The translations under genes were made by a program, and so were the position numbers. DNA of 64,000 nt from the NCBI GenBank assembly GCA_033032865.1, contig JAWHQI010000165.1:4103001-4167000 (forward strand), read 5' to 3'. Every line of letters begins with the position of its first letter. Positions within the stretch are counted from its first letter, which is position 1. Below the pieces are notes generated by a model that was not told where the DNA came from, did not search any database, and saw only the letters and a program-made list of their open reading frames with translations. This DNA is from Dactylorhiza incarnata. Lineage: Eukaryota > Streptophyta > Magnoliopsida > Asparagales > Orchidaceae. Below are positions 1 to 56,469 of this stretch, piece by piece.

Positions 1-425
1 AGGCCTCACGGCCTCCCCGGCTTGCCCCACAAGGCTCTGGGCGAGCCAGAGGCCTCCCGGCCCTCCCGGCTAGCCCCCACAAGGCTCTGGGCGAGCCGGA
101 GGCCTCACGGCCTCCCCGGCTAGCCCCACAAGGCTCTGGGCGAGCCAGAGGCCTCCCGGCCCTCCCGGCTAGCCCCCAGAAGGCTCTGGGAAAGCCGAAT
201 GTCTCCCGGCTCGCCCCCACAAGGCTCTGGACGAGCCGGAGGCCTCCCGGCCTCCCCGGCTCGCCCTCACAAGGATCTGGGCGAGCCGGAGGCCTCCCGG
301 CCCTCCCGGCTCACCCCCACAAGGCTCTGGGCGAGCCGGAGGCCTCCCGGCCCTCCCGGATCGCACCCACAAGGCTCTGGGCGAGCTGGAGGCCTCCCGG
401 CCTCCCCGGCTCGCCCTCGCAAGGG
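1..425 (-). repeat. 50-bp GC-rich tandem array in A0 U3
   Basis: Units of about 50 bp begin with aaggctctgg at 31, 81, 130, 180 and so on. Each holds inverted arms GGGCGAGCCGG and CCGGCTCGCCC about 15 nt apart, around a palindromic GAGGCCTC. Open reading frames here on both strands are repeat artefacts and are not listed as genes. Confidence 0.9.
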
Positions 426-567
426 AATAGTCCTGGGATGCGCCCCTCAGACTCGACTCCCTCCAAATTTTCACCCCTCCTCCTCCCGGGGTCGCGCCCT
501 TTGGAAATATTGGGCCTAAAAATATCTTGGGCCTCGGGGACCAACTCGGCGAATACAGGGTTGTACA
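1..567 (-). repeat. A0 left (3') LTR, partial
   Basis: Same sequence as 22515-23227 (right LTR), ending in the identical string gaatacagggttgtaca. Only the U3 side is in the window. It differs from the right copy by scattered substitutions and in which 50-bp units are present. Confidence 0.8.
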
Positions 568-588
568 CAATCCCTGCTCTTTTCCAGC
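568..588 (-). other. A0 polypurine tract
   Basis: Read on the minus strand this is a purine-rich run (GGAAAAGAGCAGGGATTG) directly before the LTR start TGTACAACC, as expected for plus-strand priming. Confidence 0.6.
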
Positions 589-870
589 GTGGCTCATGCT
601 CGAAAAGAAATGTTCAACCCTGCATATTCGACGAGTGTCGCTGGGAATCCGACTAACGGAGATACTTTGAGAGAACATAAAGCCTCCTCGAGCGGTCCCC
701 CATCCCTGCCGGCTAGTGAGAGCCCGACTAGCGGGACCACCTTGGGAAAAAATACATTGCCTCCCCGAGAGGTCTTCCAACCCTGTCGGTTAGTGAGAGC
801 CCGGCTAGCGAGACCACCTTGGGAAAAAATACATAGCCTCCACGAGAGGTCGTCCAACCCTGCCGGCTAG
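589..870 (-). repeat. A0 77-bp tandem array, left part
   Basis: A diverged stretch to about 680, then two and a half units of a 77-bp repeat (ctagtgagagcccggctagc ...). The array continues without loss at 19002 after element A. The insertion duplicated gctag (866-870 and 19002-19006). No gene here. Confidence 0.85.
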
Positions 871-1887
871 TGTCACAACCCGCATTTTCTCCGAATTTAA
901 GAATATCAGAGTAAGAGAAAATACACGTCATGATGCCACGTCATACAGGAGACAACTGTAGACGCTCAGGCGGGAACCAATTACTTAACTAAACAAACTT
1001 GATTATATGATAAGTCATCATTTGAAATCATTTATCAGGGGTTTTGAGATAAGAACTGTGTCTCTCAGTTCGTGGATCAACTAGTCCATCGAGAAAGTAT
1101 ATATAATTGCAGCGGAAAGTACTTGATTTAATTTACTTAAAGTCCTACATGTATGCAAACGACGGAGCATGAGGTAAATGATATGCACATAACTAGGCAT
1201 ACTGTAAGAGTAGAAAATACCTTTAGGCGACTTTAAAGTAAGGGTTTCAGTTAGAAAGAATGCAATGAGGATGAAGAAAAAAAACATTTTATAACTATAG
1301 TGCACCTAGCATAAATCATTCCCAGAGGGTAAGATACACAAGATCTAAAAGTAGTGGCATAATCTGGCAAATAATCTATAAAGTATAAAAAGGGGCATAA
1401 TGGGTGTCAACAACATGACACTAACCCATTGGCACCAACTAGTATGTCTGAGCACAAGAAGTAACTAAAACAACTACCTCGCAGCAGCGGGGTGAACAGC
1501 TACTAAAACTCTGAACTTTAGGCTACACCACTAGCCGCTACGGCTCTGAACCTGAGGCATTCAATAAAACAAAGAACGCCTCAGCAAGGAATTACAAGTG
1601 GCAGAAAACTAGCAGAAAAACAAGCAAGGCATAAGGGGTACCAACCCAAGCCAAATTTACCGAAAGAGAGCTCCAAACATGGAACCAACAAGCATCAAGT
1701 GCACTAAATACCAAAAGAGGAACAAACATGTTCATTTATTTAGTTTCATCAATTAAAGAGACTGATCAGCTCAAATTATACGGGAGCGGTTAACTACCTC
1801 CGCTACCCAAAGCCCAAAACCAGGTGGGGGTACCACTAGACCCAACCACCCAGACACGACTACCGTGCAAGGCTATAACATTTCCCC
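871..1887 (-). repeat. Element A left (3') LTR, first segment
   Basis: Matches 16380-17393 almost base for base. It stops at a C tract where element B is inserted. No gene; the short frames are also present in the other LTR and look incidental. Confidence 0.93.
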
Positions 1888-1972
1888 TGTTGGGAAAATG
1901 ATTTCTCTTAACCCCTAGAAATGAGTTAAAGAAAGAGTTTTATGAATGAATAACAAAAGACCAAGTAAATAT

Positions 1973-2210
1973 GCGTCGAATGGTATTCGACGCTACGTCG
2001 AAATATAGTCGACGTTTTCTTCAGGATATGTCGAAGTAACTCTAGGAAGATTTTGACGTATGTCTTATCGACGCTACTCTGATTTCTAGTCGACGCATAC
2101 AGAGAAGTCGACGCACTTTTGTCGACGCACATTCCTCATATCTCTCTCGACGTCGGGCTAAGATGAATTCGACGCTTACGTCGAATAGTAATCGACGCAC
2201 GTCGATCTTT
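1973..2210 (+). repeat. Inverted-repeat motif array in B U3
   Basis: Copies of GCGTCGA-N7-TCGACGC. Clear units lie at 1973-1993, 1995-2015 and 2178-2198, each with exactly 7 nt between arms. Between them are degenerate or single arms. The 3' LTR has the same array at 8093-8330. It lies upstream of the TATA box and is also at the 3' end of the genomic RNA. Confidence 0.9.
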
Positions 2211-2483
2211 ATGACAGATTTATTATTGCGCCAGATCTCTTTCCTTCTTTTCTGAAGATCTGATTTATATAGAATGATGTTAATATTTTATAGCCGTTCT
2301 GAATCATTCTTTCCTTCTATTTGATTCTTGGCTAAATCTGATTAACTCTATTTTGGATATTATTTGAAATCCGAATTAACATTTTCCATTTATGCTATAA
2401 CTGCTATGGAAATATTTCTCTCTTCCTAAATCTCTGGCTGCTAATTGATTCCTCTCCTATAGTGCTATCTTATTACACAGAGC

Positions 2484-2492
2484 TATAAAATA
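2484..2492 (+). promoter_or_regulatory. TATA box of B LTR promoter
   Basis: TATAAAATA about 270 bp downstream of the U3 motif array and about 700 bp before the primer site. Transcription would start near 2515. Identical in the 3' LTR at 8604. Confidence 0.65.
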
Positions 2493-2855
2493 AAGAGGAA
2501 GTCGGCAAAAAAAAAAAACAAGAGTGATCTACCACACATATATGATATAGAGGAAAAAGCTCCCAAAAGAAAAGAGAGATATTGAGAAAAAGCTCTGCAG
2601 CAACATCCATCCATTTCTACTTCTGCTCACTGCTCACTGCTGCAAAATCTGATTGCTCTCACTAAAAGAGAGAAAGGCTACAAATCTTCTTCTCTCTATA
2701 GAAGAAAGATTTAATTCATAACTTGTGCTTCAAATCTTCTTGCTAGGAAGAAGATTCATTATTGTCTTTATTTCTTTCTCCTTCTTTATTCTTATTCACT
2801 ATTGTAAAAGAGTTTTTAGAATCTCTCTTCAAAAAATTCAGTGTACTGGTTCTAA

Positions 2856-3304: not shown

Positions 3305-5630
3305 ATGGCACAAATCAAAGATTATGCTTCCACCAGACCACCAATGTGCAACCTTGAAAAGTTTGCAGTTTGGAAAACAAGAATCAGAATCTATATGAAT
3401 TCTATTGATGCTGACTTGTTCAATATTACTGTAACAGGTCCACCAAAGCCCTATAGAAAGGATGCAAATGGAAACATCACACAAACACTTGTTCCAAGAT
3501 CTGAATGGATAGAAGATGAGAAGAAGGCAAGAACTCATGATCTAAAGGCCATGAACATACGTCTCAACTCTCTCAGATGACATCTTTCAAAAGGTTGTTG
3601 ACTGTGAATCATCCAAGGAAATTTGGGATGCCCTCACAAAGATGGTGGAAGGAAGTGCTGATGAAAAGAAAGACAAGAAGGCCCTATTGATCTCTCAATA
3701 TGAGAACTTTCAAAAGAAGGCTGAAGAAGGCATCTCTGAAATGTATGACAGATTCAGTCTGATCATCAATCAACTAAGAGACTTGGATAGAGAAATCTCT
3801 CTTACTGAGATAAATGACAAATTACTAATGAGTCTCCCTAGTTCATGGGACTCAAGAATTTGGGCAATAAAAGACATAAGAGGACAAAAAGAGATCTCAA
3901 CAGATGCTCTCTTAGGAAAACTCAGATCCTATGAGCAGTTGCTGAAAACTAGAGAGGAGAAGGAAAGAAGAGAAAACGCCCCAAGTCCCTCAAAAAGCAG
4001 GAACATTGCTCTAAAGGCAACAGAAGAAGAAACTTCTGTCACTGAAGAAGAATTATTCAGTTTCTTGGCCAGAAGATTTAGGAAATGGGTCAAGAAAGAT
4101 GGATCAAAAAGGAGGGAGTCAAGACCAAGGTATGACAAAACACCCACTAAAGAAATAATTTGCTATTCTTGCAGAAAACCTGGACACATTGCCCCAGAAT
4201 GTCCAGAGAATGCTGAAACAGAGAAGGATCTGAAAAAGAAAGATCTGAAGAAAAAGGGGAAGAAGAAAGAAAAAGGCTTCATTGCTGAAGTCTGGAGTGA
4301 AACAAACTCTGAGGATAGTTCATCCTCTAAGAGTGACAATGAAGAATCTAGACAAGAAGACATATGCTTGATGGCCTTTGAAGATACAAAGAATGATGAT
4401 AAACCATGGAGTGAAACAGGATCAGAAGAAGATCTATCCTCAGATGATGAAAAAGAAGAGAACCTCATTCTCATTGAGGAATCTGAGAATGAGGATGAGG
4501 TAAGTATGTTTGATGACATTGATTTTCAAAGTGATAGCTTTAGAAATGATTTTATAAAAATGTACCTAGATCACCTAAAAACAAATCAAGAAATTGAGGA
4601 TCTAAAAGAACAAATCAATGTAGCTAAAAATCAGAGAAACATAGAAATTAACTCTTCTAAAGATTATGAATCAATAGCTAGCAGAATAAAGAAGGAAACA
4701 GAAAGGGCCAATATAGAAAATCAGTTCCTTAAGAACAAAGTAACCCAGGCAAAAGCCTTTGAAGAATCAATAAAAATAAGAAGTCAAAATCTTAAGGAAA
4801 TCACTGACAAACAAACAATAAGACCCAAACATCTTGGGCTAGGGGCTGATCCCTCAATCAGCCTAACTTCATCCAACAAACCTGCTTGGATGAGCCCTAT
4901 AAAATTCACTAAACCTGTTAATTTGTTAAACCAAGAAAAAGATAAGGGAGAAAAAGAAACCAAGGAATTTGATGAAACATCTTATTATTCAGCTGATGAT
5001 TCACATACTTCATCTGAAGAAACAATCAATCCAAGAAGAACAACACATAAAGGAGTAAAAACAGAGAAAGGCAAAATGAAAATTTGTGAAGACACAGATG
5101 CGTCGACTTCATATCGACGCATGCACGATAGTGCGTCGACTTATTCTCGACGCAACCTCTCAGATGCCTCGACCTCTACTCGACGCTTGAATAAAGATAC
5201 GTCGACATCAATTCGACGCAACTTTCCTCATGCGTCGACACCAGATCAATGCAATCTGAGGAATGCGTCGATAACAAATCAACGCAATTATCAACATACG
5301 TCGAATAGATATCGACGCAAAAATGTTCAGAGCAACTTAAATACATTCTCTCCAAAAGTCTTTTATCCTAACCCTCATTCAGGAACCAGTCATCCTAATC
5401 ATGAATTTTATCCAAATAAACACTTCAATCCCAAACAAAATGTTTATCTTAACCAAAAATCCCATCTTAATCAAAACCTATATTCAAACCAACACTCTTA
5501 TTCTAATCAACACTTATATCCTGCTCTAAATTCAAATTCCCTTAATACTAGGATAATCAAGTGCTATATATGTAACAAAGCTGGCCATACTACCAAGCAA
5601 TGTTGGTACAATCAATCAAACTATCTGTAA
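3305..5630 (+). pseudogene. gag: B Gag, Copia type, frameshifted
   Basis: The start at 3305 opens MAQIKDYAS, followed by the conserved Copia gag region (VWKTRI..., DLFNI). A 2-base deletion near 3559, judged against the homologous reading in E, shifts the frame, and the long second part runs 3642-5630. A CCHC knuckle (CX2CX4HX4C, at about 4162-4203) is followed by an acidic, lysine-rich and coiled-coil stretch. Then come seven ASTxxRR heptads (5100-5318), a tyrosine/asparagine-rich tail and a second CCHC knuckle at the C-terminus. Gag forms the particle and binds the RNA. Pol, which normally follows, is absent. The frame break may mean Gag is supplied in trans. Confidence 0.85.
5100..5318 (+). 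repeat. 33-bp-phased 21-nt inverted-repeat units inside B gag
   Basis: Seven units start at 5100, 5133, 5166, 5199, 5232, 5265 and 5298, an exact 33-bp period. Each is a 7-nt arm (GCGTCGA or variant), a 7-nt variable spacer and a 7-nt arm (TCGACGC or variant). Sequence between arms and between units has diverged. In the gag frame each unit reads ASTxxRR or a variant. The motif is the same as in the LTR. Confidence 0.93.
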
Positions 5631-5721
5631 AATCTAGTTCAAAACTGACTCAGAAAACATTAGGACTAGAAAGAAATAATGAGAAATAAAAATTTAAAAT
5701 TCTTTTTAAAAGTCACTTCTA

Positions 5722-5868
5722 GTCGACGCACCGTCGATAACCAACACAATAAATCGACGCATGCGTCGACCAAAATCGACGCATACGTCGATAGAAAACC
5801 CTAAACATCTCAAACTCTGTCTATATCAACGATGACGTCGAATTACACTCGACGTAACGTCGACTTCA
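5722..5868 (+). promoter_or_regulatory. TCGACGC motif cluster upstream of B accessory gene
   Basis: Between gag and the second gene. It contains the same arms, for example GCGTCGA-N6-TCGACGC near 5763 and ACGTCGA-N7-TCGACGT near 5835, ending about 185 bp before the accessory ATG. Possibly a promoter or protein-binding region for that gene (inference). Confidence 0.6.
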
Positions 5869-6052
5869 GGATAAAAGAGCGGCAACATTAGAATATTTTC
5901 GGTCACATCCACTGGAGTACCGAAAAAGCCTCGAATTGAGCCCTGTTTCGACGTTTCACCTGACTTAAAAAGACTCTTCAGAAACCTCCACTACTCTGCA
6001 TCTTTTATCCTCCGTGCTCCTTTGTCCAGCTGATTCTTCTTACTGATCCTCA

Positions 6053-8007: not shown

Positions 8008-9328
8008 TGTTGGGAAAATGATTTCTCTTAACCCCTAGAAATGAGTTAAAGAAAGAGTTTTATGAATGAATAACAAAAGACCAAGTAAATATGCGTCGAA
8101 TGGTATTCGACGCTACGTCGAAATATAGTCGACGTTTTCTTCAGGATATGTCGAAGTAACTCTAGGAAGATTTCGACGTATGTCTTATCGACGCTACTCT
8201 GATTTCTAGTCGACGCATACAGAGAAGTCGACGCACTTTTGTCGACGCACATTCCTCATATCTCTCTCGACGTCGGGCTAAGATGAATTCGACGCTTACG
8301 TCGAATAGTAATCGACGCACGTCGATCTTTATGACAGATTTATTATTGCGCCAGATCTCTTTCCTTCTTTTCTGAAGATCTGATTTATATAGAATGATGT
8401 TAATATTTTATAGCCGTTCTGAATCATTCTTTCCTTCTATTTGATTCTTGGCTAAATCTGATTAACTCTATTTTGGATATTATTTGAAATCTGAATTAAC
8501 ATTTTCCATTTATGCTATAACTGCTATGGAAATATTTCTCTCTTCCTAAATCTCTGGCTGCTAATTGATTCCTCTCCTATAGTGCTATCTTATTACACAG
8601 AGCTATAAAATAAAGAGGAAGTCGGCAAAAAAAAAACAAGAGTGATCTACCACACATATATGATATAGAGGAAAAAGCTCCCAAAAGAAAAGAGAGATAT
8701 TGAAAAAAAGCTCTGCAGCAACATCCATCCATTTCTACTTCTGCTCACTGCTCACTGCTGCAAAATCTGATTGCTCTCACTAAAAGAGAGAAAGGCTACA
8801 AATCTTCTTCTCTCTATAGAAGAAAGATTTAATTCATAACTTGTGCTTCAAATCTTCTTGCTAGGAAGAAGATTCATTATTGTCTTTATTTCTTTCTCCT
8901 TCTTTATTCTTATTCACTATTGTAAAAGAGTTTTTAGAATCTCTCTTCAAAAAATTCAGTGTACTGGTTCTAAGAGTCTCCTTTTCAAAAGACTCAGTTG
9001 GTTCTAAGAGTCTCCTTGTCAAAAGACTCAGGGTGGTTCTAAGAGTCTCCTTATCAAAAGACTCAGTGCAAGTTAGTGAATTCCTACCAAGGGGGTAGAA
9101 GAGTGGACTACCCAAAGTTTGGGGAACCACTATATTTTCTTGTGTTGTGCTGTGAAATTTCTTTCTTGCATTTACTTAATTGCTTGTCTAATTCTTGTTG
9201 GTGTGTGGGAAGCTCTAATCTGTGATCATACACATATATATATATTAACTTTGCACAAAATATTTTAAATCTCTATTCACCCCCCCCCCCCTCTAGAGAA
9301 TTCTAGTGAGGTTAACTGTGCACTTTCA
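8008..9328 (+). repeat. Element B 3' LTR
   Basis: 1321 bp, almost identical to 1888-3206. Differences include a TTTTGACG/TTTCGACG change in one motif arm, an A-run length and one AT repeat. Includes the motif array (8093-8330) and TATA box (8604). Confidence 0.93.
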
Positions 9329-10922
9329 TCCCCCCCACTGTCCCCCAAACACAACTACTGTGAAGGGCCAAAGACAGTAGTTCTTATTACTTAAATTTTA
9401 ATTAAACACGGGACGCAGCCCGAAAGGATAATCACTGGAAGGCCCTAAGAAATAGGGCCAAGGCGAAGTACTCATCGATCAATATGAATCATAAGAGTAA
9501 CTCAAATGTCAACAGACCACAACGAGTAGAAAAAAAGTTCAAACGAGAGGGATTCGAGATCAGGAGCACCGAAAGGTCACTGGCCACCATCCAAGTGCAC
9601 CCGAGGGGACACGAGATTCAAACATAAAAACTCAACGAAATCACATGCGCACCTGGCGGGGTTCCAAGGGGCCGCACCCCTGGCGGGGTCTTAGGGGCAG
9701 AGCCCCGTCCAAATTTTGAAATCCCACCACCGGAAACCACGCCAAAAACCCACCTCAAATTGAGGACTTCTCGAGAAATAGAAGGTTGAAATCTCGAGAA
9801 AAAGGCAGTCTCTCGAGATACGAAAGGTGATTTCTCGAGACATCAAAGGAATTCTCGAGACAAAGCAAGGGATTTCTCGAGACGAAGCAAGGGATTTCTC
9901 GAGACATGGAAAGGACTTCTCGAGACAAGACAGGCAATTTCTCGAGACATGGAAAGGATTTCTCGAGACAAGACAGGCAATTTCTCGAGTAAGCTAGAAT
10001 CAGCAAGAAGAATGGAATTTATTCAGCTCACGGTTTTCTCCAAGGAAAACTAGATACTAGGGTAAGATTGAAGAGGAGAAAATCAAGGGGAGGTTCTAGA
10101 TCATAAGTTACTACACCAAACACACAAAACTCTTGCTAATCAGCATGACAAGAGCTCAAAACGAGCAAACCAATTGTCAAAAGAATCAAGAGAGAAAGAG
10201 GAAGAAACCACTTGCCTTAACCTTGCAAAACTCGAGATCCTCCGCTCCGAAGGCTAAGGAAACACTCAAGCACGAAATCCTGGAACGATTCAGACCAAAA
10301 GGAAGAGTTAGGTCACCGCCAAATCTCCCAAAACTCCTCGAAACGAGAAAAAGCTTACCGCTAGAACGAAGATCTCGCCGAGAGCTTTCCAAATCTTCAA
10401 TCCAAACACGATTCCGACCACTACAGCCCTAGAAACCGTCGGCCGGAAGCTATCCGACACTCCGCACTCGCCTCTCTCGCTCGGCGGCTACTTTTGAGCG
10501 AGGGAGAAGATGAAGAATAGGAGGAGATGTTTTAGGTATTTATGTGAAAACCTAATTTAATAATTAATTAATTAATTAATTCCCTTATTACTTAAACTGC
10601 GAGGGCGACCAGAACAACTCGGATTCCCACGAAATTCGCGCCTTAACTAGAAAACGGCGCTACGAATCCAACGGCGAAGTCAGAATTCAATTCCGACGAG
10701 CCAAACTCCGGATAAAGCCTTCCGAAGCGAAAATCTTGATATCCACTCAAAATCTTCACTTTAACTCGAAACGACGCGAAATCTCGCACGCTTGACCTAA
10801 ATCATAAGCTTTAACTAAGCTAAAACTCGAAACACTACCAGACGAGCTGACATAACGCCCTTACGCCAAAATTACGTCACAGAGGGTACGTAAAATAGTT
10901 AACAAAAATCAGGGGCGTTACA
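9329..10922 (-). repeat. Element A left (3') LTR, second segment
   Basis: Continues the LTR after element B and matches 17410-19001. Contains the TCTCGAGA array (9769-9990). No gene; the frames at 9755-10432 lie in the array and flank and recur in the other LTR. Confidence 0.93.
9769..9990 (-). repeat. TCTCGAGA palindrome array in A LTR
   Basis: Eleven copies of the 8-bp palindrome (last one partial) at 9769, 9792, 9811, 9833, 9853, 9875, 9897, 9918, 9940, 9961 and 9983. Intervals are 19-23 bp, mostly 21-22. The same array is at 17848-18069 in the other LTR. Confidence 0.95.
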
Positions 10923-16379: not shown

Positions 16380-19001
16380 TGTCACAACCCGCATTTTCTC
16401 CGAATTTAAGAATATCAGAGTAAGAGAAAATACACGTCATGATGCCACGTCATACAGGAGACAACTGTAGACGCTCAGGCGGGAACCTATTACTTAACTA
16501 AACAAACTTGATTATATGATAAGTCGTCATTTGAAATCATTTATCAGGGGTTTTGAGATAAGAACTGTGTCTCTCAGTTCGTGGATCAACTAGTCCACCG
16601 AGAAAGTATATATAATTGCAGCGGAAAGTACTTGATTTAATTTACTTAAAGTCCTACATGTATGCAAACGACGGAGCATGAGGTAAATGATATGCACATA
16701 ACTAGGCGTACTGTAAGAGTAGAAAATACCTTTAGGCGACTTTAAAGTAAGGGTTTCAGTTAGAAAGAATGCAATGAGGATGAAGAAAAAAAACATTTTA
16801 TAACTATAGTGCACCTAGCATAAATCATTCCCAGAGGGTAAGATACACAAGATCTAAAAGTAGTGGCATAATCTGGCAAATAATCTATAAAGTATAAAAA
16901 GGGGCATAATGGGCGTCAACAACATGACACTAACCCATTGGCACCAACTAGTATGTCTGAGCACAAGAAGTAACTAAAACAACTACCTCGCAGCAGCGGG
17001 GTGAACATCTACTAAAACTCTGAACTTCAGGCTACACCACTAGCCGCTACGGCTCTGAACCTGAGGCATTCAATAAAACAAAGAACGCCTCAGCAAGGAA
17101 TTACAAGTGGCAGAAAACTAGCAGAAAAACAAGCAAGGCATAAGGGGTACCAACCCAAGCCAAATTTACCGAAAGAGAGCTCCAAACAAGGAACCAACAA
17201 GCATCAAGTGCACTAAATACCAAAAGAGGAACAAACATGTTCATTTATTTAGTTTCATCAATTAAAGAGACTGATCAGCTCAAATTATACGGGAGCGGTT
17301 AACTACCTCCGCTACCCAAAGCCCAAAACCAGGTGGGGGTACCACTAGACCCAACCACCCAGACACGACTACCGTGCAAGGCTATAACATTTCCCCCCCC
17401 CCCCCCCCCCCCCCCACTGTCCCCCAAACACAACTACTGTGAAGGGCCAAAGACAGTAGTTCTTATTACTTAAATTTTAATTAAACACGGGACGCAGCCC
17501 GAAAGGATAATCAGTGGAAGGCCCTAAGAAATAGGGCCAAGGCGAAGTACTCATCGATCAATATGAATCATAAGAGTAACTCAAATGTCAACAGACCACA
17601 ACGAGTAGAAAAAAAAGTTCAAACGAGAGGGATTCGAGATCAGGAGCACCAAAGGTCACTGGCCACCATCCAAGTGCACCCGAGGGGACACGAGATTCAA
17701 ACATAAAAACTCAATGAAATCACAAGCGCACCTGGCGGGGTTCCAAGGGGCCGCGCCCCTGGCGGGGTCTTAGGGGCAGAGCCCCGTTCAAATTTTGAAA
17801 TCCCACCACCGGAAACCACACCAAAAACCCACCTCAAATTGAGGACTTCTCGAGAAATAGAAGGTTGAAATCTCGAGAAAAAGGCAGTCTCTCGAGATAC
17901 GAAAGGTGATTTCTCGAGACATCAAAGGAATTCTCGAGACAAAGCAAGGGATTTCTCGAGACGAAGCAAGGGATTTCTCGAGACATGGAAAGGACTTCTC
18001 GAGACAAGACAGGCAATTTCTCGAGACATGGAAAGGATTTCTCGAGACAAGACAGGCAATTTCTCGAGTAAGCTAGAATCAGCAAGAAGAATGGAATTTA
18101 TTCAGCTCACGGTTTTCTCCAAGGAAAACTAGATACTAGGGTAAGATTGAAGAGGAGAAAATCAAGGGGAGGTTCTAGATCATAAGTTACTACACCAAAC
18201 ACACAAAACTCTTGCTAATCAGCATGACAAGAGCTCAAAACGAGCAAACCAATCGTCAAAAGAATCAAGAGAGAAAGAGGAAGAAACCACTTGCCTTAAC
18301 CTTGCAAAACTCGAGATCCTCCGCTCCGAAGGCTAAGGAAACACTCAAGCACGAAATCCTGGAACGATTCGGACCAAAAGGAAGAGTTAGGTCACCGCCA
18401 AATCTCCCAAAACTCCTCGAAACGAGAAAAAGCTTACCGCTAGAACGAAGATCTCGCCGAGAGCTTTCCAAATCTTCAATCCAAACACGATTCCGACCAC
18501 TACAGCCCTAGAAACCGTCGGCCGGAAGCTATCCGACACTCCGCACTCGCCTCTCTCGCTCGGCGGCTACTTTTGAGCGAGGGAGAAGATGAAGAATAGG
18601 AGGAGATGTTTTAGGTATTTATGTGAAAACCTAATTTAATATTTAATTAATTAATTAATTCCCTTATTACTTAAACTGCGAGGGCGACCAGAACAACTCG
18701 GATTCCCACAAAATTCGCGCCTTAACTAGAAAACGGCGCTACGAATCCAACGGCGAAGTCAGAATTCAATTCCGACGAGCCAAACTCCGGATAAAGCCTT
18801 CTGAAGCCAAAATCTTGATATCCACTCAAAATCTTCACTTTAACTCGAAACGACGCGAAATCTCGCACGCTTGACCTAAATCACAAGCTTTAACTAAGCT
18901 AAAACTCGAAACACTACCAGACGAGCTGACATAACGCCCTTACGCCAAAATTACGTCACAGAGGGTACGTAAAATAGTTAACGAAAATCAGGGGCGTTAC
19001 A
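16380..19001 (-). repeat. Element A right (5') LTR
   Basis: 2622 bp, intact copy. Contains a run of 23 C (17393-17415), the palindrome array and no gene. Two candidate TATA boxes on the minus strand (about 16605 and 18618) leave it open whether the array is in U3 or in R/U5. Confidence 0.93.
17848..18069 (-). repeat. TCTCGAGA palindrome array, second LTR copy
   Basis: Same order and spacing as 9769-9990, so the array is stable over the age of the insertion. Confidence 0.95.
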
Positions 19002-22504: not shown

Positions 22505-23090
22505 GCTAAGCGCAGACCGCCTACCCGGCTTGGAGCTGGGCGAGCCGGAGGCCTCTCGGCCTCCCCGGCTTGCCCCCACAAGGTTCTGGGCGAGCCGGAG
22601 GCCTCTCGGCCTTCCCGGCTCGCCCCCACAAGGCTCTGGGTGAGCCGAAGGCCTCCCGGCCTCCCCGGCTCACCCCCACAAGGCTCTGGGCGAGCCGGAG
22701 GCCTCCCGGCCTTCCCGGCTCACCCCCACAAGGCTCTGGGCGAGCCAGAGGCCTCACGGCCTCCCCGGCTCGCCCCCACAAGGCTCTGGGCGAGCCGAAA
22801 GCCTACCGGCCCTCCCAGCTCGCCCCCACAAGGCTCTGGGCGAGCCGGAGGCCTCCCGGCCCTCCCGGCTCGCCCCCACAAGGCTCTGGGCGAGCCGGAG
22901 GCCTCCCGGAGTCCCCGGCTCGCCCTCACAAGTCTCTGGGCGAGCTGGAGGCCTCCCGGCCCTCCCGGCTCGCCCCCACAAGGCTCTAGGTGAGCCGGAG
23001 GCCTCCTGGCCCTCCCGGCTCGCCCCCACAAGGCTCTGGGCGAGCCGGAGGCCTCCCGGCCTCCCCGGCTCGCCCTCACAAGGGAATAGT
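22505..23090 (-). repeat. 50-bp GC-rich array in A0 right LTR
   Basis: About eleven units like those at 1-425, with the same inverted arms. Confidence 0.92.
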
Positions 23091-27934: not shown

Positions 27935-28029
27935 TCTTAGCTAACGCCAGCGTTAGCACATAACGTCTGGCGTTAGCCCCTAAGGCGGTGGCTGAGTTTA
28001 TCCATAGCCGCTTAAAGCCCTACGGTGCT

Positions 28030-28670
28030 CGACGATCGGCGTTCGACGAATGGACTGGAGTTCATCGAACGGCGTTCGACGAACTCTCTGCAGCCTGCGT
28101 TCGACGAACGGCCTGAAGCCTGCGGTCGACGAATGGCCTGAAGCCTGCGGTCGATGAACGGCTGGCTGCATTCGACGAACAGCTAGAAAGTTGTGCTCGA
28201 CGAATGGTTGACTGCGTTCGGCAAACTGCTAGAAAGCTGCGTTCGACGAATGGCTGGTTGCGTTCGACGAACTGCTAGAAAGCTGCGTTCGACGAACTGC
28301 TAGAATGCTACGTTCAACGAACGACTGGCTGCATTCGACGAACAGCTAGAAAGCTGCGTTCGACGAACGGCTGACTGCGTTCGACGAACTGCTAGAAAGC
28401 TGTGTTCGACTAACGGCTGGCTGCGTTCGACGAACTGCTAGAAAGCTGCGTTCGATGAACGGCTGACTGTGTTCGACGAACTGATAGAAGCTGCGTTCGA
28501 CGAACGTCTGGCTGCGTTCGACGAACTGCTAGAAAGCTGCGTTCAACGAACGACTGGCTGCGTTCGATGAACTGCTAGAAAGCTGTGTTCGACGAACGGC
28601 TGGCTGCATTCGATGAATTGCTTAAAGCCTGCGTTCGACGAACGACCTGAAGCCTGCATTCGACGAACGG
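28030..28670 (-). repeat. GTTCGACGAAC array in C U3
   Basis: More than twenty copies of GTTCG-A-CGAAC (5-bp arms around one base), some with single changes, at alternating intervals of about 21 and 25 bp. Filler alternates GGCTGGCTGC and TGCTAGAAAGCTGC. Confidence 0.93.
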
Positions 28671-28745
28671 CTTGAGCTAACACCGGGCGTTATCTTTAAG
28701 ACCACAACTTGCTGATTTCAGTGCACTGAAAATTGAGGTGTTACA

Positions 28746-34353: not shown

Positions 34354-34776
34354 AATATCATCGTGTATGTGATACTCACACGATGATATTGTCTTGATCA
34401 CTCATCGGGGGTAACAAAAGAAGTCAGTCAACAATCGACATGATAATAAGAAGAACACGATGATATCATCGTGACAACAAGATCCACATGATGATATCTT
34501 TGTGAGAGCTCAAGGAAAGTCTATTGAGGTATATATCGTCATGACAATAAGCTTCACATGACAATATCATTGTGAGAGCTCAAGGAAAGTCTGCTAAGGT
34601 ATATATCGTCGTGACAACAAGCTTCACACAATGATATCACTGTGAAAGCTCGAGGAATGCCATCTAAGTTACTTATCGTCATGACAACACGGTGTACATG
34701 ACGATATCATTGCCGGAACTCAAGAGAAGACTGCTAAGTCATTTATCATTGTGTTAACCAACTTCACACAACGATA
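34354..34776 (+). repeat. 70-bp array of 10-13-10 hairpins in D U3
   Basis: A first hairpin at 34354-34390 has perfect 13-bp arms and an 11-nt loop. Then five units begin at 34464, 34534, 34604, 34674 and 34744, exactly 70 bp apart. Each is TATCRTYRTG, 13 nt, and a right arm complementary or nearly so. Loops vary but keep 13 nt. CACGATGATATCATCGTG at 34456 is an 18-bp perfect palindrome. Confidence 0.92.
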
Positions 34777-34907
34777 TCGTCTTGTCAAGCCCAGAAGACG
34801 GGATTTCAAATTGAGGAAGATGACAAAAGAAAATGTCAAATCAATACTTCTGAAAAGTGGTCTGAGACAAAACCTTTTTAGGTCTCGACCATTTGAAGAG
34901 TTAGAGC

Positions 34908-38472: not shown

Positions 38473-40011
38473 TGTTGGGAACAGTGCCCAGTAATGTCCC
38501 TGATTTGAAGAAGTGTTCAGGTCAATGATAAAGGCATAATGTATTTGATGGTATGTCATATTTATGACTGCAGAGCATAGATTGTATGTCTAGTACTTCT
38601 TTAATCTCTCTAAGTCCAAAATTGTTGAGAAGGACTGGACATAACATTGATATTATACACATATCATTGAATAAGTATAAATCTCTCTAGGGAGAAAGTT
38701 TATTCTTATCGACAAAATAGACAAGGCTTATCGTTGAGAATGTAAGGCTGTCGTTGGAAAGAATACCTTGCTGAAGTTCTTCAAGAATCTTGAGTTAAAT
38801 ATCTGGCTAAGTCGACGATATTGTCATAAAGGAGCTTTTTCGTTGAGAAGACTAAGTCAGAATTCATGGAGAAAGGTTGCAGCTGAAGTGTTCAGTGTCG
38901 TCTGGATGATCTCGGTAATATCGATGAGAAGACCTCAAGTCAGCAAGATGTTCACAACGATATCGACGTGATTGCTTCATTTCACCGTGATTGCAAGTGT
39001 AGCTGAGATATCTCATATCGTCGAGATATCCTTCTCAGGAGAAGATTTAAGAAGACTTGAATATTTTTCTAAATCCAAGATAGATCGCTGAGACGGCAAG
39101 CTCTGTCATCGAGATGTTGCTCATATCGTCGAGACAGACTGAGATCTTTCGAATTATGCTGTCTGCATTTAATGTCATTGCCTGATGATCCAATCAATAA
39201 ATGTCATTAAGGAATGGGCCTCTGGCACTTAAAGGACCTCTAAGTAGACCGTTAGAAGGTCCCCCAGTCATATAAAATGGAATAGTGTCTACCCTAATTT
39301 CTAACAGAGAGTAATCAAATCAATCGAACAGTAAAAATGATTGTATGAAGAAGGAACAATCTCTCGAGAACAATACACTCTTGTTTTCTATTCTCCAAAT
39401 CTCAGTCAAGCAACATCGACTGTCAAGCCGTGTTCCAGATTAAAGAAAGGATAGAAGAGAAGTTTGTGTTCTGCAAAAAAAGATCTTTATAGTTTTCTCT
39501 TCAAGTCCAGAGGCCGTCAACATCTGGCTTCAGAAGAACTCTCCAGTATTTTCTTTATTGTGTAAAGTGTTCTTCATTCTTGTATTTTATACATTCTCTG
39601 CGGGACTTTATAAGTCTACGATGTAGGGTTCTGTGAGAACCTGAGGTGGGATCTGAGATAGATCTGAGTTGTAAGGCCTGGCATGCCTGAGTTGTAGGGT
39701 TCCTGGAACCTAGGTTGGATCCTAGAAAGATCTGAGTTATAGGGCCTGCAGTGCCTGAACTATAAGATCTGTGGAGAATATCTGAGATTTGGTGGAGTTT
39801 GCTGACTTTAGCACACTGCTAGATAGGCGCAGAGAGATAGTGGACACCTTAAGACACATTGTCTTGAGGAACCACTATAAATCTTGTGTCTATTTGTGTT
39901 GTGTTTTGTGTTAGTTTGTTGTGTTGTGATCTATTCTATTGGCTTTTATGCATAAACTTCAAAACAGTCATATCATATATCCCCCTCTAGGTGATAGTTA
40001 CATTTATAACA
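38473..40011 (+). repeat. Element H 5' LTR
   Basis: 1539 bp from TGTTGGGAACAGTG to TTATAACA. U3 (38700-39130) is rich in ATCGTCGAGA and ATCGTTGAGA, including GATATCTC-N8-GAGATATC near 39011. TATA box TATAAAATG at 39271. No gene. Confidence 0.82.
39271..39278 (+). promoter_or_regulatory. TATA box of H LTR
   Basis: CATATAAAATGG about 140 bp after the motif-rich segment. Confidence 0.6.
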
Positions 40012-40352: not shown

Positions 40353-40640
40353 GCGTCGAATAGAAGTCGACGCAACTTCGACTAGATATCGACGCAACTT
40401 CGATTAGATGTCGATGTAACTCTGACTGATAGTCGAAGCAACTCAATCAGCCTGTCAAAGTATTAGTCAAGTCAACGCAACGTCGAAAGGAACTCGACGC
40501 AGAAGGAAGAGCCTATCGAAGCCATCTTAGAAGTCGATGCAATTTCGACTTTAATTCGACGCAGAAGATAAATTTCAAGTCCAAGCCTTCAACTCGACGG
40601 ATACGTCGATAAGAAATCGACGCAACTTTGACACCTGAGT
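40353..40640 (+). repeat. 22-bp-phased 7-7-7 inverted-repeat array in E U3
   Basis: Units start at 40353, 40375, 40397 and 40419, an exact 22-bp period, each a 7-nt arm, 7-nt spacer and 7-nt arm (GCGTCGA, TCGACGC and variants). Further units near 40488, 40552 and 40603 keep the 7-nt spacer. Confidence 0.92.
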
Positions 40641-41396
40641 TCAACCATAGCTAAGAAGGAATTCGAAGCTACTCCTATAAGAACTCAGAGGTGCGTCGAT
40701 ATGAAGAATGATGAAGCCGACGCGGCGTTGAATACAGTCTGAAATAGAAGCTTTTCTACTGTCCTCTTAATACCTTTTCAGAAGGTCCACAAAGCTGAAG
40801 ACAGTTCTCCAACGGCTCGTTATTGCCAAGAATGGAATGGATTATTCCAGGATACAACGAAAACATTCTTGGAATATATTCAAATCTGATGGACGAGTCG
40901 GGAATAAAACAAGAAAGGGAAATCAACTGTCCAACAGGAATTCATTTTCAGGACAGCCCAAAAGAAGAAAGAAATTCAAATTCCAATCACAGAGAATAAG
41001 TCTGCTGAGATGAGAAGAAAAATAAAAGGATTGATCACAAATTTTCCATCTGTCGAATAGGGATTTTCGCTTCTTCCTCCTTCAACCCTAAGACAGAAAA
41101 TAACATATCTCTCTGCACAAGAAAACATCATAGCTGCTTCTTCTTCTTCATCACACAACAACAAGTTTACAAGAAGTGCACATAGAATAAGGATCAAGCC
41201 AATAACCCTTGCAATCATCACAATCATAAGCAAGGGTTCAGTATATTCAGAGCCAGTGATAAACAGAAATAACAAATAGCTTCTAAAGAATTCTGAAAGC
41301 AGAATTCTATTCTCCTCTTTCTCTCTTTCTTCTTCTTTATTCACCAACTGTAAAAGAGTTTTATTAATCCCTCTTTCAAAGGATTCAGTGGTTTTA

Positions 41397-43286: not shown

Positions 43287-43292
43287 CCTTGG

Positions 43293-43672
43293 AGCTAGCG
43301 CCTGCGCTAGTGCTACCGCCGACACTATCCCATTTTAGGATATATTCTGCGCGGCAGAATCTTCAATCTGAGGAAATAATTCTCTCTTACCTTCTGTGCT
43401 CCACGCTACCGCCTGCGCTATCGGATACCACCAGGCGCTATCTCCTTCTATATGTGCTCCCGGAATTGCGCTTAAGCATTCTTTTCGTCGATCGAATTTT
43501 CGTCGAACGCAGTGATGAGCATTTCATCGAGCGCAGCTTATAGTTCGTCGAGCGAAAGCTAGCGCCAGTGCTAGTACTAGCGCGCTGCGGTAAAGTAAGC
43601 AGTTCGTCGAGCACCAGTTTGCATCTCAGCGGTTCCTTAGCGTTAGCGGTACCGCCGGCGCTAGTAGGAGTG
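43293..43672 (-). repeat. GCGCTAGC and TTCGTCGA motif region in F U3
   Basis: Mixed inverted repeats: TAGCGC...GCGCTA forms, GCGGTACCGC, ACCGCCGGCGCTAG, and several TTCGTCGA(A/G)C. The same region in the right LTR is 50479-50855. Confidence 0.85.
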
Positions 43673-46188: not shown

Positions 46189-46189
46189 A

Positions 46190-49695: not shown

Positions 49696-51013
49696 TATTG
49701 GATCGGTAGGCGTCCTTATAGGGGTGGTGAATAAGGGTTTTAAAAACTTATATTATATTTTGAAATACTTGCTTATGATAAGAGATCAAAATAGTGATTT
49801 TGATCTAATATGTAAAATGTTTTATAATAAAGGAGAGGATAATAAACAGTTTAGAGAAATGAAGAACAAATCAATTTTATTACACAAAGAGAGACATGAT
49901 TATTATTAATAAAATTGATTACAAAATTTTTTTTTCAATGACGCTATAAATCAAAGCGAAATATGAAAGACTCTTTTTGTTTTCTATACCGACTCGTATC
50001 CCCACGAACCGGTTGGCTTTAGCCGATCCTTCCCCGGATACGGCCTTAAGCTGCTCTAGCCAACCCTTCCCCGGATATGGCCTCGAGCACCCCGTAGACC
50101 TACACCCGAGACCTAGTCGCCAACACGAGGCGAATTTCTGCCCTAAGTCCTACCCAGACCTAGTCGCCAACACGAGGCAAATTTACTACATGATTTAAAA
50201 GAAAAGATGTGAAATAAAAATACAATAATACAAAACTCCCTATATGGATCTCTTGGAGAAGTGGATGAAGGCCCGCAGAGTATGATCGTAGTCGATGCGG
50301 TCTTTCATCACGATGATGACGCGTGTTGAAATCTTCTCCACAGATCTCCTTAAGCCTTTATGGATTTGTGGGAGTATCTCTCTGAACCTTCCTCTCTATG
50401 TTGTGGCACGAAGCTCTGGAATTTTAGATCTGAAGAGGATGAGGAAGACAGAGCCAAGGGGTCCTTTTTATAGCCTTAGAGCTAGCGCCTGCGCTAGTGC
50501 TACTGCCGACGCTATCCCATTTTAGGACATATTCTGCACGGCAGAATCTTCAATCTGAGGAAACAATTCTCTCTTGCCTTCTGTGCTCCGCTCTACCGCA
50601 TGCGCTATCGGATACGGCCAGGCGCTATCTCCTTCTATATGTGCTCCCGGAATTGCGCTTAAGCATTCTTTTCGTCGATCGAATTTTCGTCGAACACAGT
50701 GATGAGCATTTCGTCGAGCGCAGCTTATAGTTCGTCGAGCAAAAGCTAGCGCCAGTGCTAGTACTAGCGCGTCGCAGTAGAGTAAGCAGTTCATTGAGCG
50801 CCAGTTTGCATCTCAGCAGTTCCTTAGCGCTAGCGGTACCGCCGGCACTAGAAGGAGTGTTGGATTTGATGGCTCACATTTGGGGGCAACCTTCTTATGT
50901 AATCCTTGGGTCATGTGGACTTTGTTATCCTGCACACTTAACCACACAAGATCAAATACACATAGGTTTTGTTATTCTCAAACCTAGTAGATGCGGAAGA
51001 CCATGTTCCAACA
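49696..51013 (-). repeat. Element F right (5') LTR
   Basis: 1318 bp, similar to 42503-43826. Its inner end reads TA instead of TG on the plus strand, a decayed terminus. Confidence 0.88.
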
Positions 51014-53422: not shown

Positions 53423-53457
53423 CCTAAACCCTAAACCCTAAACCCTAAACCCTAAAC
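53423..53457. repeat. Interstitial telomere motif (CCTAAAC)5
   Basis: Five perfect 7-bp copies of the plant telomere unit (TTTAGGG on the other strand) inside the J LTR. The aligned site in K (about 55345) has none. Confidence 0.95.
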
Positions 53458-53962
53458 GAATCACAAGCAAATGCTGATGAACAGAGAAGAAACAAGCATT
53501 GCATTTAAACTAAACATCATGATATTCAAGTTCAAATGATTCAAAGAAATACTACAAAGAGGAGAAGAGGAAGACAACCAATGGACGAAGACTAGCAGCC
53601 GTTCACGGCCGGAATGGTAGTTTGTCAAGCTACCTCCGGACTCGGGCGGACTGTGCTTCCGGCGTCGAGAGACTGTCACGATCTCTCCACGTGCTTCCGT
53701 CGTCTTCTACCTCAGTATTGCTGTTCTTCTCACCGGACAAAAATGGAGACTGCTTGCTTGAGTGCTTGCGGATGGCGGAGAATGCTTCCGGACGATGGGA
53801 AAATGCTTAGGATGGCCGGAGACGACTTCCCCTTCCAGAGAAGATGAGGTGGAGATGGCTGGAAGTGGAAAACGGCGGCGTACAGACTGAAAATCCCTCT
53901 CCCGGAAGCCCGCCTATCCCTAATTTGCAGAACAGGTCATTATATAGGCACTGGCGAAAATA

Positions 53963-54222
53963 CTGCGCACGGTCATTGGCGCACGACCAGTGGTCGTGCG
54001 CGCTGGATTTCTGTGATCGTGCGCCTGCCTGGGCGGAACCTGCAAGCTAAGAAATTTATTAAATAACATGTTTGCACGACCAGTGGCGCACGACCAGTAG
54101 TCGTGCGCACTATCGTAAATGGTCGTGCGTTCGGTCAAACAGAACTCAAATTTTGGGGGTTGAGTGCACACGATCAATGGCGCACGACCAGTGGTCGTGC
54201 GCAATAAAACCAGTGATCGTGC
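53963..54222 (-). repeat. 10-3-10 palindrome array in J U3
   Basis: Three 23-bp palindromes GCGCACGACC-N3-GGTCGTGCGC (second with one change) at 53979, 54086 and 54180, each flanked by GCGCACGATC or GATCGTGCGC half-sites. It begins within 20 bp upstream of the TATA box. Confidence 0.93.
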
Positions 54223-54484
54223 GCAGTGTTCCTGTACATAATTGTACCGGGAACACCTGCACGACTCATGTTCCTACAGAAATGCTAATCAGGCCACTGA
54301 AAGGGGCACTCAACAATACGATAAGGCTAACAAGAAAGAATAAACATAAAACACACCAAAATAGGCCAAGAAGTGCACCTAGCATAGAACGACAAATATG
54401 AGCTAAAAAGGCTAAAGTGCAGTGGAATGACTAGAGAAATGGCCCAGATGAGTCCATCTATGTGTATATAATTGGGACTCATCA

Positions 54485-54959
54485 CACCCCCAGACTTACC
54501 TTTTTGCGCGTCCCGAGCAAACACAACCTGCGGAGTAGGGAAAATGGTGGTTGGCGTAGAGAATTGCAAATAAAGAGTCAGATGCAAAGTATCATACCCA
54601 TGCAAATAGAAATTCTGTAAAAGAAGATTTTAACTATACTAATTAATTTACAAAAGTATACATGCGTAAATAGAGATTTATTTGTACTCAGATGGTTAAT
54701 CATGAAGAATTTGTGCGGTCGTGCCCGATGTGAAAGTAAACAAGCCACTCAGGAGGGTGTTGCTAAAGACCGGAATTCGGGAATAACTCCGCTGAAATCC
54801 ATCAACGACGAGAACCATAAGCTTGCCCGGTTACACTCTCTCCACGGCACTAGCAAACTCAGAAGTTAAATCAATAGGACTTTGGGTTGAAATTTGGGCT
54901 TAGGTTACGGTATGATATTCAATGATAAACGAAACGGCTACGCAACCCAAATGAGCAAC
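54485..54959 (-). other. Element J interior stub
   Basis: Starts with the polypurine tract (minus AAGTCTGGGGGTG) and contains no gene. The last bases gcaac (54955-54959) are the candidate target duplication of K. Confidence 0.75.
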
Positions 54960-55823
54960 TGATGCGCGTCGGCAAGTGCACCGGTCGCTGTCAAGTAATA
55001 ATTGTGGAGAATAAATTCCCCGGATGTCGGTCTCTTGAGGAATGCAGGATGGGTGATCGAATCGTGCAGTGAATATTGTTACACAAGCGTTTCACAAACA
55101 CAACAAGGGGTTTTTGGTTGGTTTTCCTAATTTTAACAACAATAAAAGAGATGCGGGTCGAGAACACCGCTTCGCAACGTGAGGTGGATGCAACGGCCGC
55201 GATGTCGTGCTTCGTGAGGCGAATGAAGTGGACTCAGGCGCGAGAGAGTGAGGGTCGCAAACACCTCTTCACAACCGTCATTAGCTCTTGCCAACACAGA
55301 GCAAACACCTTGCGTGCGTGTGTGAGTGAGTGCGCTTGAACGTGGTGAATCACAACCAACCCATGAATAAGAACACAGAAACATTCATTCTCATCAAGTA
55401 AATATCACAATATTCATTTAGTAAAAGATTCAAAGGGGTACAATCAAGGAAAGAGGAAGGAGATAACCGGCGGTGAAGACTAGCGGCCGTTCACGGCCGG
55501 AATGGTAGGTTGTCGGGCTACCTCCGGACTCGGGCGGACGATGCTTCCGGCGTAGAGGGCTGTCACAATCTCCCTACGTGCTCCGTCGTCTTCGACTCAA
55601 GGTCTCTTCTTCTTCTCACCGGGCGGAAAGCGAAAATGATTGCTTGGAGGCTTGCGGATGATGGAGAACACTCACGGACGATGGAGGATGTCCAGGAATG
55701 GACCGAGGAAGCTTCCCCTTGCGTAGGAGATGAAGTAGGGGCGATCCAAGGGGGCGGTCGGCGGCGTACGGAACAGAAATCCCACTCCCGGAATGAATAA
55801 TCCGCCCTAAAATCGCAACAGGC

Positions 55824-55834
55824 GCTTAAATAGG
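55824..55834 (-). promoter_or_regulatory. TATA box of K LTR
   Basis: CCTATTTAAGC on the minus strand, directly downstream of the palindrome array. Confidence 0.65.
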
Positions 55835-55850
55835 CGCTGGATTAAACACT

Positions 55851-56212
55851 GCGCACGATCATTGGCGCACGACCAGTGGTCGTGCGCACTGGAATCCTGC
55901 GATCGTGCGCACTGCCTGGACAGAACCTGCAAGAGATGAAATTATAAAATAAAATGCTCGCACGACCAATGGCGCACGACCGTTGATCGTGCGCACTAGC
56001 GTCGGTGGTCGTGCGCAATAGGTGAGACAGAACTCATAAAATTACTATTAAGTGCGCACGGACAGTGGCGCACGACCGGTGGTCGTGCGCACTGGAGTTG
56101 ATGGGCGTGCGCACTGCACCAGACAGAACTCGTAAAAAAGGGGCTAAGTGCGCACGATCAGTGGCGCACGACCAGTGGTCGTGCGCACTAGAACAAGTGA
56201 TCGTGCGCAGTG
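55851..56212 (-). repeat. 10-3-10 palindrome array in K U3
   Basis: Palindromes at 55865, 55972, 56068 and 56164, about 96-107 bp apart, form GCGCACGACC-N3-GGTCGTGCGC with one variant (GATC for GGTC). Each is flanked by outer half-sites GCGCACGATC and GATCGTGCGC, so two nested stems can form. Confidence 0.94.
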
Positions 56213-56469
56213 TTCCTGTGCAGAATTGCACCGGAAACACTTGCACGCCTCCTATTCCAGCACAAACACAGATCTAGCCACCGAAAGTGGCACTTAACAA
56301 CATATGAGTACTATGAAAGGAAATAAACACGAAAACACACCAAAGTGGGCCAAAATGTGCACCTAGCATGGGTTATCAATTATAAACTATAATAAGGCTA
56401 AAGTGCGTGATATTGACTAAATAATGGCCCGGATGAGTCCATGAAGGTGTATATAATCAGGACTCATCA

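Follow-up and report, generated by a model that had tools for sequence, protein, structure and literature searches.

The stretch of Dactylorhiza incarnata DNA considered here (64,000 nucleotides of contig JAWHQI010000165.1, positions 4,103,001 to 4,167,000, also given as C732:4103001-4167000; hereafter the window) is a stack of nested plant long terminal repeat (LTR) retrotransposons, as judged from self-comparison, target-site duplications, and Pfam matches. Elements A0, A, C, and K are Ty3/gypsy and elements B, D, and E are copia by Pfam; F has a copia match below the Pfam cut-off, H is called copia solely from its LTR start and primer site, and J is an LTR 75-79% similar to K. Target-site duplications read by eye flank A (GCTAG) and F (CTATG). 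The subject of this study is the arrays of short repeated boxes that these elements carry, mainly in the unique 3' (U3) region of their LTRs (Table 1). The boxes are conserved among genome copies of B-like, C, A, J/K, and D elements, their spacing is nearly fixed, and a core word is shared across the two superfamilies.

Table 1. Box arrays and predicted TATA-like boxes in the window (LTR ends corrected by eye; 3' end of the D LTR uncertain)
Element	Feature	Position	Strand	LTR or context
A0	U3 array, 50-bp units, 11-bp arms	22536..23083	-	LTR 22085-23227; Ty3/gypsy gag-only element
A0	Predicted TATA-like box	about 22393-22401	-	
A0	Array, other LTR	1..424	-	cut by window start
A	Array, ten exact TCTCGAGA, spacing 19-23	17843..18068	-	Ty3/gypsy LTR 16380-19001
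A	Array, other LTR	9764..9989	-	LTR split by element B
B	U3 array, CGTCGA/TCGACG half-sites: three exact N7 pairs plus lone half-sites	1973..2206	+	LTR 1888-3206
B	Predicted TATA-like box	2266	+	
B	Array, 3' LTR	8093..8326	+	LTR 8008-9328
B	Array within gag frame, seven 33-bp units, coding S-x-x-x-R-R-like repeats	5100..5320	+	
B	Linker array, upstream of ORF2	5720..5870	+	first exon candidate 6053-6322
C	U3 array, 29 units of GTTCGTCGAAC	28027..28680	-	Ty3/gypsy LTR 26374-28745
C	Predicted TATA-like box	about 27923-27931	-	
D	U3 array, 6 units, ATATCRTCRTG-N13-CAYGAYGATAT-like	34355..34777	+	copia 3' LTR from 34194
D	Predicted TATA-like box	34952	+	
H	U3 words (ATCGTCGAGA), weak palindromes	38800..39135	+	LTR 38473-40011
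H	Predicted TATA-like box	39271	+	
E	U3 array, CGTCGA-N7-TCGACG	40353..40735	+	copia LTR 40171-41767
F	U3 cluster, TTCGTCGA and GCTAGCGC words	43294..43665	-	LTR 42505-43826
F	Predicted TATA-like box	about 43277-43285	-	
F	Cluster, other LTR	50480..50850	-	LTR 49698-51013
J	U3 array, GCGCACGACC-N3-GGTCGTGCGC	53965..54225	-	LTR-like 53041-54957
J	Predicted TATA-like box	about 53938-53946	-	
K	U3 array, same GCGCACGACC-N3-GGTCGTGCGC box as J	55850..56210	-	Ty3/gypsy 3' LTR 54960-56941

A reading of the window made earlier without database searches (the sequence-only reading) held that most of its LTR families have their own CpG-rich inverted-repeat array, usually upstream of the TATA box. Each named array was compared for inverted repeats and CpG with the rest of its LTR and with dinucleotide shuffles, using LTR ends that were off by up to 9 bases for A0, C, D, E, and H in this and the TATA comparison. 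Most arrays proved to be real and several to be weak: measured against shuffles, the inverted-repeat excess gives z values of just 1.1-1.4 in F and 1.6 in H, whereas A0, A, B, C, D, E, J, and K reach 2.6-8.8. H had been put forward as the weaker case, in agreement with its z of 1.6 and its fold z of -0.5; F is also weak as a palindrome. When 510 sub-windows of 250 bp were ranked by inverted-repeat excess over dinucleotide shuffles, blind to annotation, the first seven that did not overlap were all arrays (A twice, the B linker, K, A0, D, and the B gag array). Not outstanding in the same scan were C, at the 81st percentile among non-array sub-windows and with arms of merely 5 nt, H (69th), the left A0 copy (92nd), E (92nd), and F (94th-95th). 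In some families CpG marks the arrays more sharply, as in element B (7,441 bp), where 103 of 125 CpG fall within 845 bp, giving 12.2 per 100 bp inside the arrays and 0.33 outside. Seven families (A0, B, C, D, F, H, and J) have a predicted TATA-like box at 9-162 bp below the array, although in B and D it is not the best-scoring TATA-like word of the LTR; E and K have only weak TATA-like words, and A does not fit the claimed position upstream of the promoter, which the seven families may follow.

The claim that one architecture recurs in two superfamilies is borne out, with arrays in the Ty3/gypsy elements A0, A, C, and K and the copia elements B, D, and E. A word recurs as well: CGTCGA or its complement TCGACG occurs 96 times in the window, with only seven occurrences in the 56,856 bp outside arrays, and is common to five families of both superfamilies (B, C, E, F, and H). 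In a test of eight families, from which E (CGTCGA ten times) was excluded as kin of B, CGTCGA was the sole hexamer with at least three copies in four families (B 13, C 20, F 4, H 4), and sharing of any hexamer by four families was reached in 0 of 300 shuffle rounds. The word is not present in the window arrays of A0, A, D, and K; the commonest arm form in genome copies of D contains CGTCG.

Spacing is nearly fixed within families. In the LTR and linker arrays of B and in E, seven of nine exact convergent half-site pairs within 20 bp have N7, as do all four in the B gag array, where the period is set by repetition. Genome copies were drawn from the 3.27-Gb assembly of 3,184 contigs, and genome-wide counts were set against a reversed-pattern control, which does not preserve CpG content: GCGTCGA-N3..12-TCGACGC has 36,220 sites against 37, the J/K box 73,116 against 0 (spacer 0-12 allowed), pairs of GTTCGTCGAAC 5-20 bp apart 30,123 and 29,889 on the two strands (60,012) against 1 and 1, pairs of TCTCGAGA 53,777 against 524, and TATCGTC..GACGATA 7,753 against 84. 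Shares of spacer lengths describe the listed sites, which are the first places from few contigs. Among the matches listed, N7 is found in 49 of 50 distinct GCGTCGA..TCGACGC sites (the remaining one is N6) and N3 in every J/K site; GTTCGTCGAAC pairs have a spacer of 10 nt in 61 of 100, which is 43 of the 74 distinct spacers, giving a 21-bp period. In D, 96 of 138 sites have N13 (spacer 5-24 allowed), and sites occur in 19 of 20 copies. The B and E box proposed earlier is recovered as CGTCGA-N7-TCGACG in both window arrays, with N7 dominant among the listed genome sites, and the constant 3-nt spacer of J (3 units) and K (4 units) holds in the window as well as in the listed genome sites. For D the regular 13-nt spacer stands, but the stems are 11-13-11 in six units rather than 10-13-10, and one loop is unrelated. 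The more general proposal, that spacer length is kept while spacer sequence drifts, is correct for length, which is nearly fixed, and fails for the sequence of the J/K spacer, which does not drift (identity 0.94).

Conservation was examined in genome copies of B-like, C, A, J/K, and D elements; E-like copies were seen just among N7 loci. B-like copies came from 20 regions out of 50 listed N7 sites, picked because they hold such a site, after exclusion of thirty B copies (L001-L030) 98-100% identical to the query; 20 copies each were taken for C, J, D, and A from about 40 scored matches per family. The sequence-only reading had asked whether arms are conserved no better than the rest of U3 and whether spacer lengths vary freely, and neither is seen in these five groups. 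For B-like, C, J/K, and A copies the mean letter identity within words is 0.92-0.97, compared with 0.55-0.81 for the letters next to them. Across B and eight related U3s, identity to B is 97.6% in words, 71.6% in other array letters, and 62.9% outside the array, a comparison in which L039/L041 and L046/L048 each probably represent both LTRs of a single element and so are double-counted. When the word was called in one B-like copy and identity scored among the others, the values were 97.1% for words and 80.7% for the rest. Lone half-sites are kept at 93.7% (74 words) and N7-paired ones at 98.8% (46 words).

The C array is present in all 20 fetched copies, with 7-31 near units each; in 350 distinct units the nine letters TTCGTCGAA have identities of 0.89-0.98, the nearer flank 0.66-0.84, and the outer flank 0.35-0.60. 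In 16 of the 20 copies a TATA box lies 85-115 bp below the last unit, at 94-95 bp in 14 of those (by hand). The A array is likewise present in 20 of 20 copies, with 6-16 exact TCTCGAGA each, and in 101 distinct units the core is at 0.90-1.00 and 17 of 20 flank positions are at 0.38-0.64. The J/K array occurs in 19 of 20 copies (L086 is without it), and 39 distinct units have arms at 0.945 and flanks at 0.692. For 91 distinct N13 units of D, arms average 0.83 and the spacer 0.69 (means by hand). The window arrays agree, with TCTCGAGA exact in ten of ten units of A (flanks 0.67) and arms at 0.92 in the 29 units of C (flanks 0.67). Since units were selected by pattern match, arm identities are inflated; a control anchored on other positions supports C, where the palindrome of the window array ranks first of 398 anchor positions by identity, and the leave-one-out comparison covers B alone.

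Within its own arrays A0 behaves differently, its arms being conserved no better than the rest of the 50-bp unit (0.955 v 0.932 and 0.935 v 0.949), the outcome that would tell against the sequence-only reading for this element. Such uniformity of the A0 units over their whole length would be expected if the arrays were mutational by-products, with tandem duplication, gene conversion, and quasi-palindrome correction keeping arms alike without selection, as would the variation in C copy number from 7 to 31 near units and the extra repeat unit in L045. However, beyond gag the B and E half-sites do not form regular tandem copies and have unrelated loops, words persist while the rest drifts in alignable copies, otherwise unlinked loci have the same box, and the codon bias described below is limited to the gag array. 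Decay after insertion is also pertinent. Between the two F LTRs, 5% apart, 16 of 84 CpG columns inside the array and 14 of 74 beyond it differ, and other columns do so six times less (9 of 288 and 26 of 870); since CpG columns decay this fast both in and out of the array, something must renew the words. By-products of mutation are disfavoured on these grounds and seem very unlikely. As the F boxes lose CpG as fast as the surrounding LTR once settled, selection among replicating copies would be left to keep them. In the younger A pair, CpG changes (0 of 26 in the array, 9 of 155 outside) are too few to tell.

The F decay also resembles deamination, and this raises a reading in which the arrays serve methylation or chromatin: as dense clusters of CpG they would recruit or repel methylation, and no sequence-specific activator would be involved. 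Consistent with it, B has 3.22 CpG per GpC in the array but 0.13 over the remaining LTR, and CpG islands defined by Sirevirus motifs are described in PMC2829016. CpG density, however, needs neither exact words, N7 or N13 spacing, nor the retention of non-CpG box letters, and the F and K arrays do not have raised CpG per GpC (0.82 in the F array against 1.11 in the rest of its LTR; 0.97 against 1.07 in K). We regard such elements as an improbable explanation.

Arrays of GTTCGTCGAAC extend beyond element C. Among the 100 pairs listed, 13 loci were chosen, each with a cluster of at least nine near units, and joined into groups when they share >250 bp outside arrays. Seven groups result: L132-L133-L135-L138-L141-L143, L136-L137, and, singly, L131, L134, L139, L140, and L142. 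None of the 13 shares >250 bp with the LTRs of the six elements compared, A0, A, B, C, F, and K. A gag near the array is copia-type in L134, L135, L138, and L142 and gypsy A0-type in L132 and L143, an assignment by nearness alone since fragments of the other superfamily also occur at a greater distance in L132, L142, and L143. The array is 5' of gag in five of these six loci and 3' of it in L143; a same-strand TATA word lies within 250 bp of the array in four of the five 5'-side loci, an adjacency that is a weak point given that TATA words are common. Sharing of this kind could come from exchange of U3 segments by template switching or recombination, so that it would mean common origin of a segment and not independent recruitment of one factor. 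Nested insertions and mixed neighborhoods are common here, and TTCGTCGA and GCG(C/T)TAGC words are found in both C and F. Segment exchange is nevertheless a poor candidate with a low probability: the inter-unit sequences are diverse (74 distinct among the 100 listed), the geometry is not the same from family to family (N7, overlapping, single, N13), sequence shared among the seven groups outside arrays does not exceed 250 bp, and exchange by itself leaves the conservation unexplained.

In element B the box is also written into a coding sequence. Seven 33-bp units whose arms resemble GCGTCGA..TCGACGC lie in the gag frame (3642-5630), all in one codon phase and mostly translated as A/T-S-T/N-x-x-R-R. 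Among codons for S, R, A, and T, CpG is present in 24 of 40 within the array but in 0 of 145 over the remaining frame. Six further genome copies with an open frame, fetched because they hold an N7 site, have the same phase and 33-bp steps; with P also counted, their CpG codons number 125 of 216 within the array as against 7 of 251 elsewhere, and CGA CGC encodes 24 of the 27 Arg-Arg pairs (L037, with a short frame in another phase, was dropped from the codon count). Two relatives with about 40% protein identity, P0001 and, from Platanthera zijinensis, P0021, have S-N-x-x-R-R repeats at the same place, and their DNA may carry the palindrome too, to judge from these protein repeats; the best named relative of the P0001 gag is from the orchid Platanthera. 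The gag array is a clear natural example of a coding sequence shaped by a signal at the nucleotide level.

Element B has several landmarks of Sireviruses. The polypurine tract (PPT) AGGGGGAG at 7998 is followed by AT and a 3' LTR starting with TG at 8008, further PPT copies lie upstream at 7289, 7658, and 7676, and an inverted repeat read by eye, GGGTTAAGA / TCTTAACCC, flanks the PPT and LTR start. The boxes occupy LTR positions 86-319 and are followed by a TATA-like word at 379, with higher-scoring ones at 597 and 1228, and extra boxes at 5720-5870 precede open reading frame 2 (ORF2), a putative ENV. The CGG-CCG core of the Sirevirus repeated motif (RM) is absent from B, the core being CGTCGA-N7-TCGACG. 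There is no space for pol between gag (end 5630) and ORF2 (from 6053). ORF2 (6053-7782) looks like two exons with a GT-AG intron (donor about 6321, acceptor about 6415), and both pieces weakly match one Platanthera protein, P0023 (single-comparison E of 1e-6 and 9e-6). The gag and linker arrays of B were absent from the sequence-only reading, as were F words before an antisense ORF. This plus-strand ORF, in the region 45764-47640, is antisense to the gag of F and has a Transposase_32 match below cut-off; GCTAGCG-like words upstream of it are at about 45764, 46100, and 46500.

Because the box letters are what is kept, protein binding to DNA fits best among the three roles first suggested for the arrays (binding sites, methylation-related elements, and RNA hairpins), with hairpins a less likely alternative supported by folding and by weak covariation in D. 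The arrays would be homotypic clusters of binding sites at which DNA-binding proteins of the host drive the LTR promoter next to them, a proposal we rate at slightly better than an even chance. A protein, probably dimeric, would bind half-sites such as CGTCGA, and binding would activate transcription from the predicted TATA-like box within about 160 bp in most families. The additional clusters in B and F may serve an internal promoter of the second ORF. Once a copy has settled, CpG methylation would inactivate its boxes ahead of their decay, and the boxes would be kept by selection among replicating copies and not after insertion.

Various observations weigh against binding sites of this kind. 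To our knowledge, no plant factor is known for these words. The A0 arms are not favored over the rest of their unit, F and K lack the CpG enrichment, and element A breaks the position rule, having one weak TATA candidate about 550 bp before the array and others at least 0.55 kb after it. About 0.7 kb separates the B gag array from ORF2 below it, and its distance to the LTR promoter is 3 kb. The anchor control with other 8-mers places the palindrome first in just two of four A arrays, and the double-counted LTR pairs and the inflation of arm identity by pattern matching belong here as well. The site of VOZ transcription factors, GCGTN7ACGC, the single known palindromic site compared, is a plant site with a 7-nt spacer bound by a dimer (PMC6321167); the B/E box is similarly palindromic with a 7-nt spacer, but reads GCGT-N13-ACGC (six matches in the window), and GCGTN7ACGC has no match in the window, so VOZ was rejected as the bound factor.

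The remaining contrary observations concern RNA. In sense RNA, 10 of 12 arrays have a folding z of -3 or lower (A0 -8.7, C -10.0, K -10.6, B gag -9.7), D shows weak covariation, and in J/K departures from C to T, which preserve a G-U pair in the sense transcript, exceed those from G to A by 20 to 6 (by hand). These would suit an RNA role, in which hairpins near the 3' end of the genomic RNA act in packaging, reverse transcription, or small-RNA supply and arms are kept for pairing; small RNAs are also reported to correlate with maize copia palindromes in PMC10760457. Of two ordinary tandem arrays of A0, an 85-bp one (19391-20549), useful as a negative control, folds worse than its shuffles (z +4.3), but the other (19002-19351) folds at z -3.6, and folding is weak in the B LTR array (z -2.0) and lacking in H (-0.5). 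In D, 23 of 500 shuffles reach the observed count of paired cells, 56 of 500 that of pairs with both sides changed, and 354 of 500 that of pair types; in genome copies 18 of 2000 shuffles are as high, and the signal is mostly at one pair. In B/E, arms pair no better with their own partners than with re-dealt ones (237 of 500), and only one of 41 departing J/K cells is a compensated pair (39 distinct units, by hand). Counts by hand do not repeat the G-U bias elsewhere: D has the opposite one (47 to 67), and C (8 to 9) and B/E (4 to 3) have none. The palindrome centers are 0 nt in A and 1 nt in C and hence cannot loop. DNA-binding sites are favored over hairpins because lone half-sites are conserved, the A and C centers are of 0-1 nt, B/E pairing does not exceed that of re-dealt partners, and compensated pairs are scarce in J/K. 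A hairpin-only model tried as a general rule is not supported, given the lack of covariation in B/E, the kept lone half-sites, and the A and C centers, and an RNA role as such is unlikely.

A more far-reaching proposal is a shared retrotransposon promoter code, in which one host factor (or family) reading CGTCGA has been recruited repeatedly by both superfamilies in various geometries (N7 inverted, overlapping with a 21-bp period, N13), with one lineage writing the site into gag. This is offered tentatively, as a possibility somewhat short of an even chance.

Repeated U3 boxes of the Tnt1 type reportedly act as transcriptional activators. The likeness to Tnt1 is one of description, sequence aside; its symmetric box I is cited in PMC2829016. 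The closest known system is the Sirevirus RM, described in that paper as palindromic, CpG-rich boxes in 8-32 copies per element, mostly in the upper LTR half, with a TATA box shortly after and extra copies upstream of the ENV ORF in ENV-bearing elements; a CGG-CCG core is given for 12 of 13 elements and the motifs are termed Sirevirus-specific. Element B shares this layout, with boxes before TATA and more before the second ORF. The present arrays differ in their core word (CGTCGA in B, C, E, F, and H), in their presence in four Ty3/gypsy families, in sharing across families of one genome, and in the encoding of the box in gag. A maize survey found palindrome peaks in copia LTRs and generally no obvious Ty3 peak (PMC10760457); those palindromes (CACCGGACNNNGTCCGGTG) are likewise clustered in copia LTRs, with predicted hairpins, whereas arrays here are also in gypsy families. 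Among the open-access papers listed, no description of a box shared across superfamilies or of palindrome arrays in gypsy LTRs appeared in a title or the start of an abstract, which is weak evidence of absence, and the CGTCGA word was not found in those listed for it.

Other features of the window relate to its nested structure. At 871-19001, A sits inside a 77-bp tandem array of A0, and B sits at a C-tract of the A LTR. The R/U5 part of the B and E LTRs contains a 33-35-bp tandem repeat (2847-2949, 8965-9067, and 41376-41487) that is similar between the two, while BLAST finds no match between their U3s. The J LTR holds five plant-telomere-like CCCTAAA repeats (53423-53457). Named matches to the K integrase are mostly from eudicots; P0089, a record under Salmonella enterica with 62% identity to this plant gypsy integrase, is probably plant contamination. 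Rfam and tRNA searches of the window gave no match.

Palindromic CpG boxes have so far been described as a Sirevirus peculiarity. Words that are kept beside neighbors that drift provide a sharp test of DNA-site against RNA-hairpin models, with bearing on LTR control and silencing. If both superfamilies share the box, one regulator of the host could determine how active much of the repeat fraction is.

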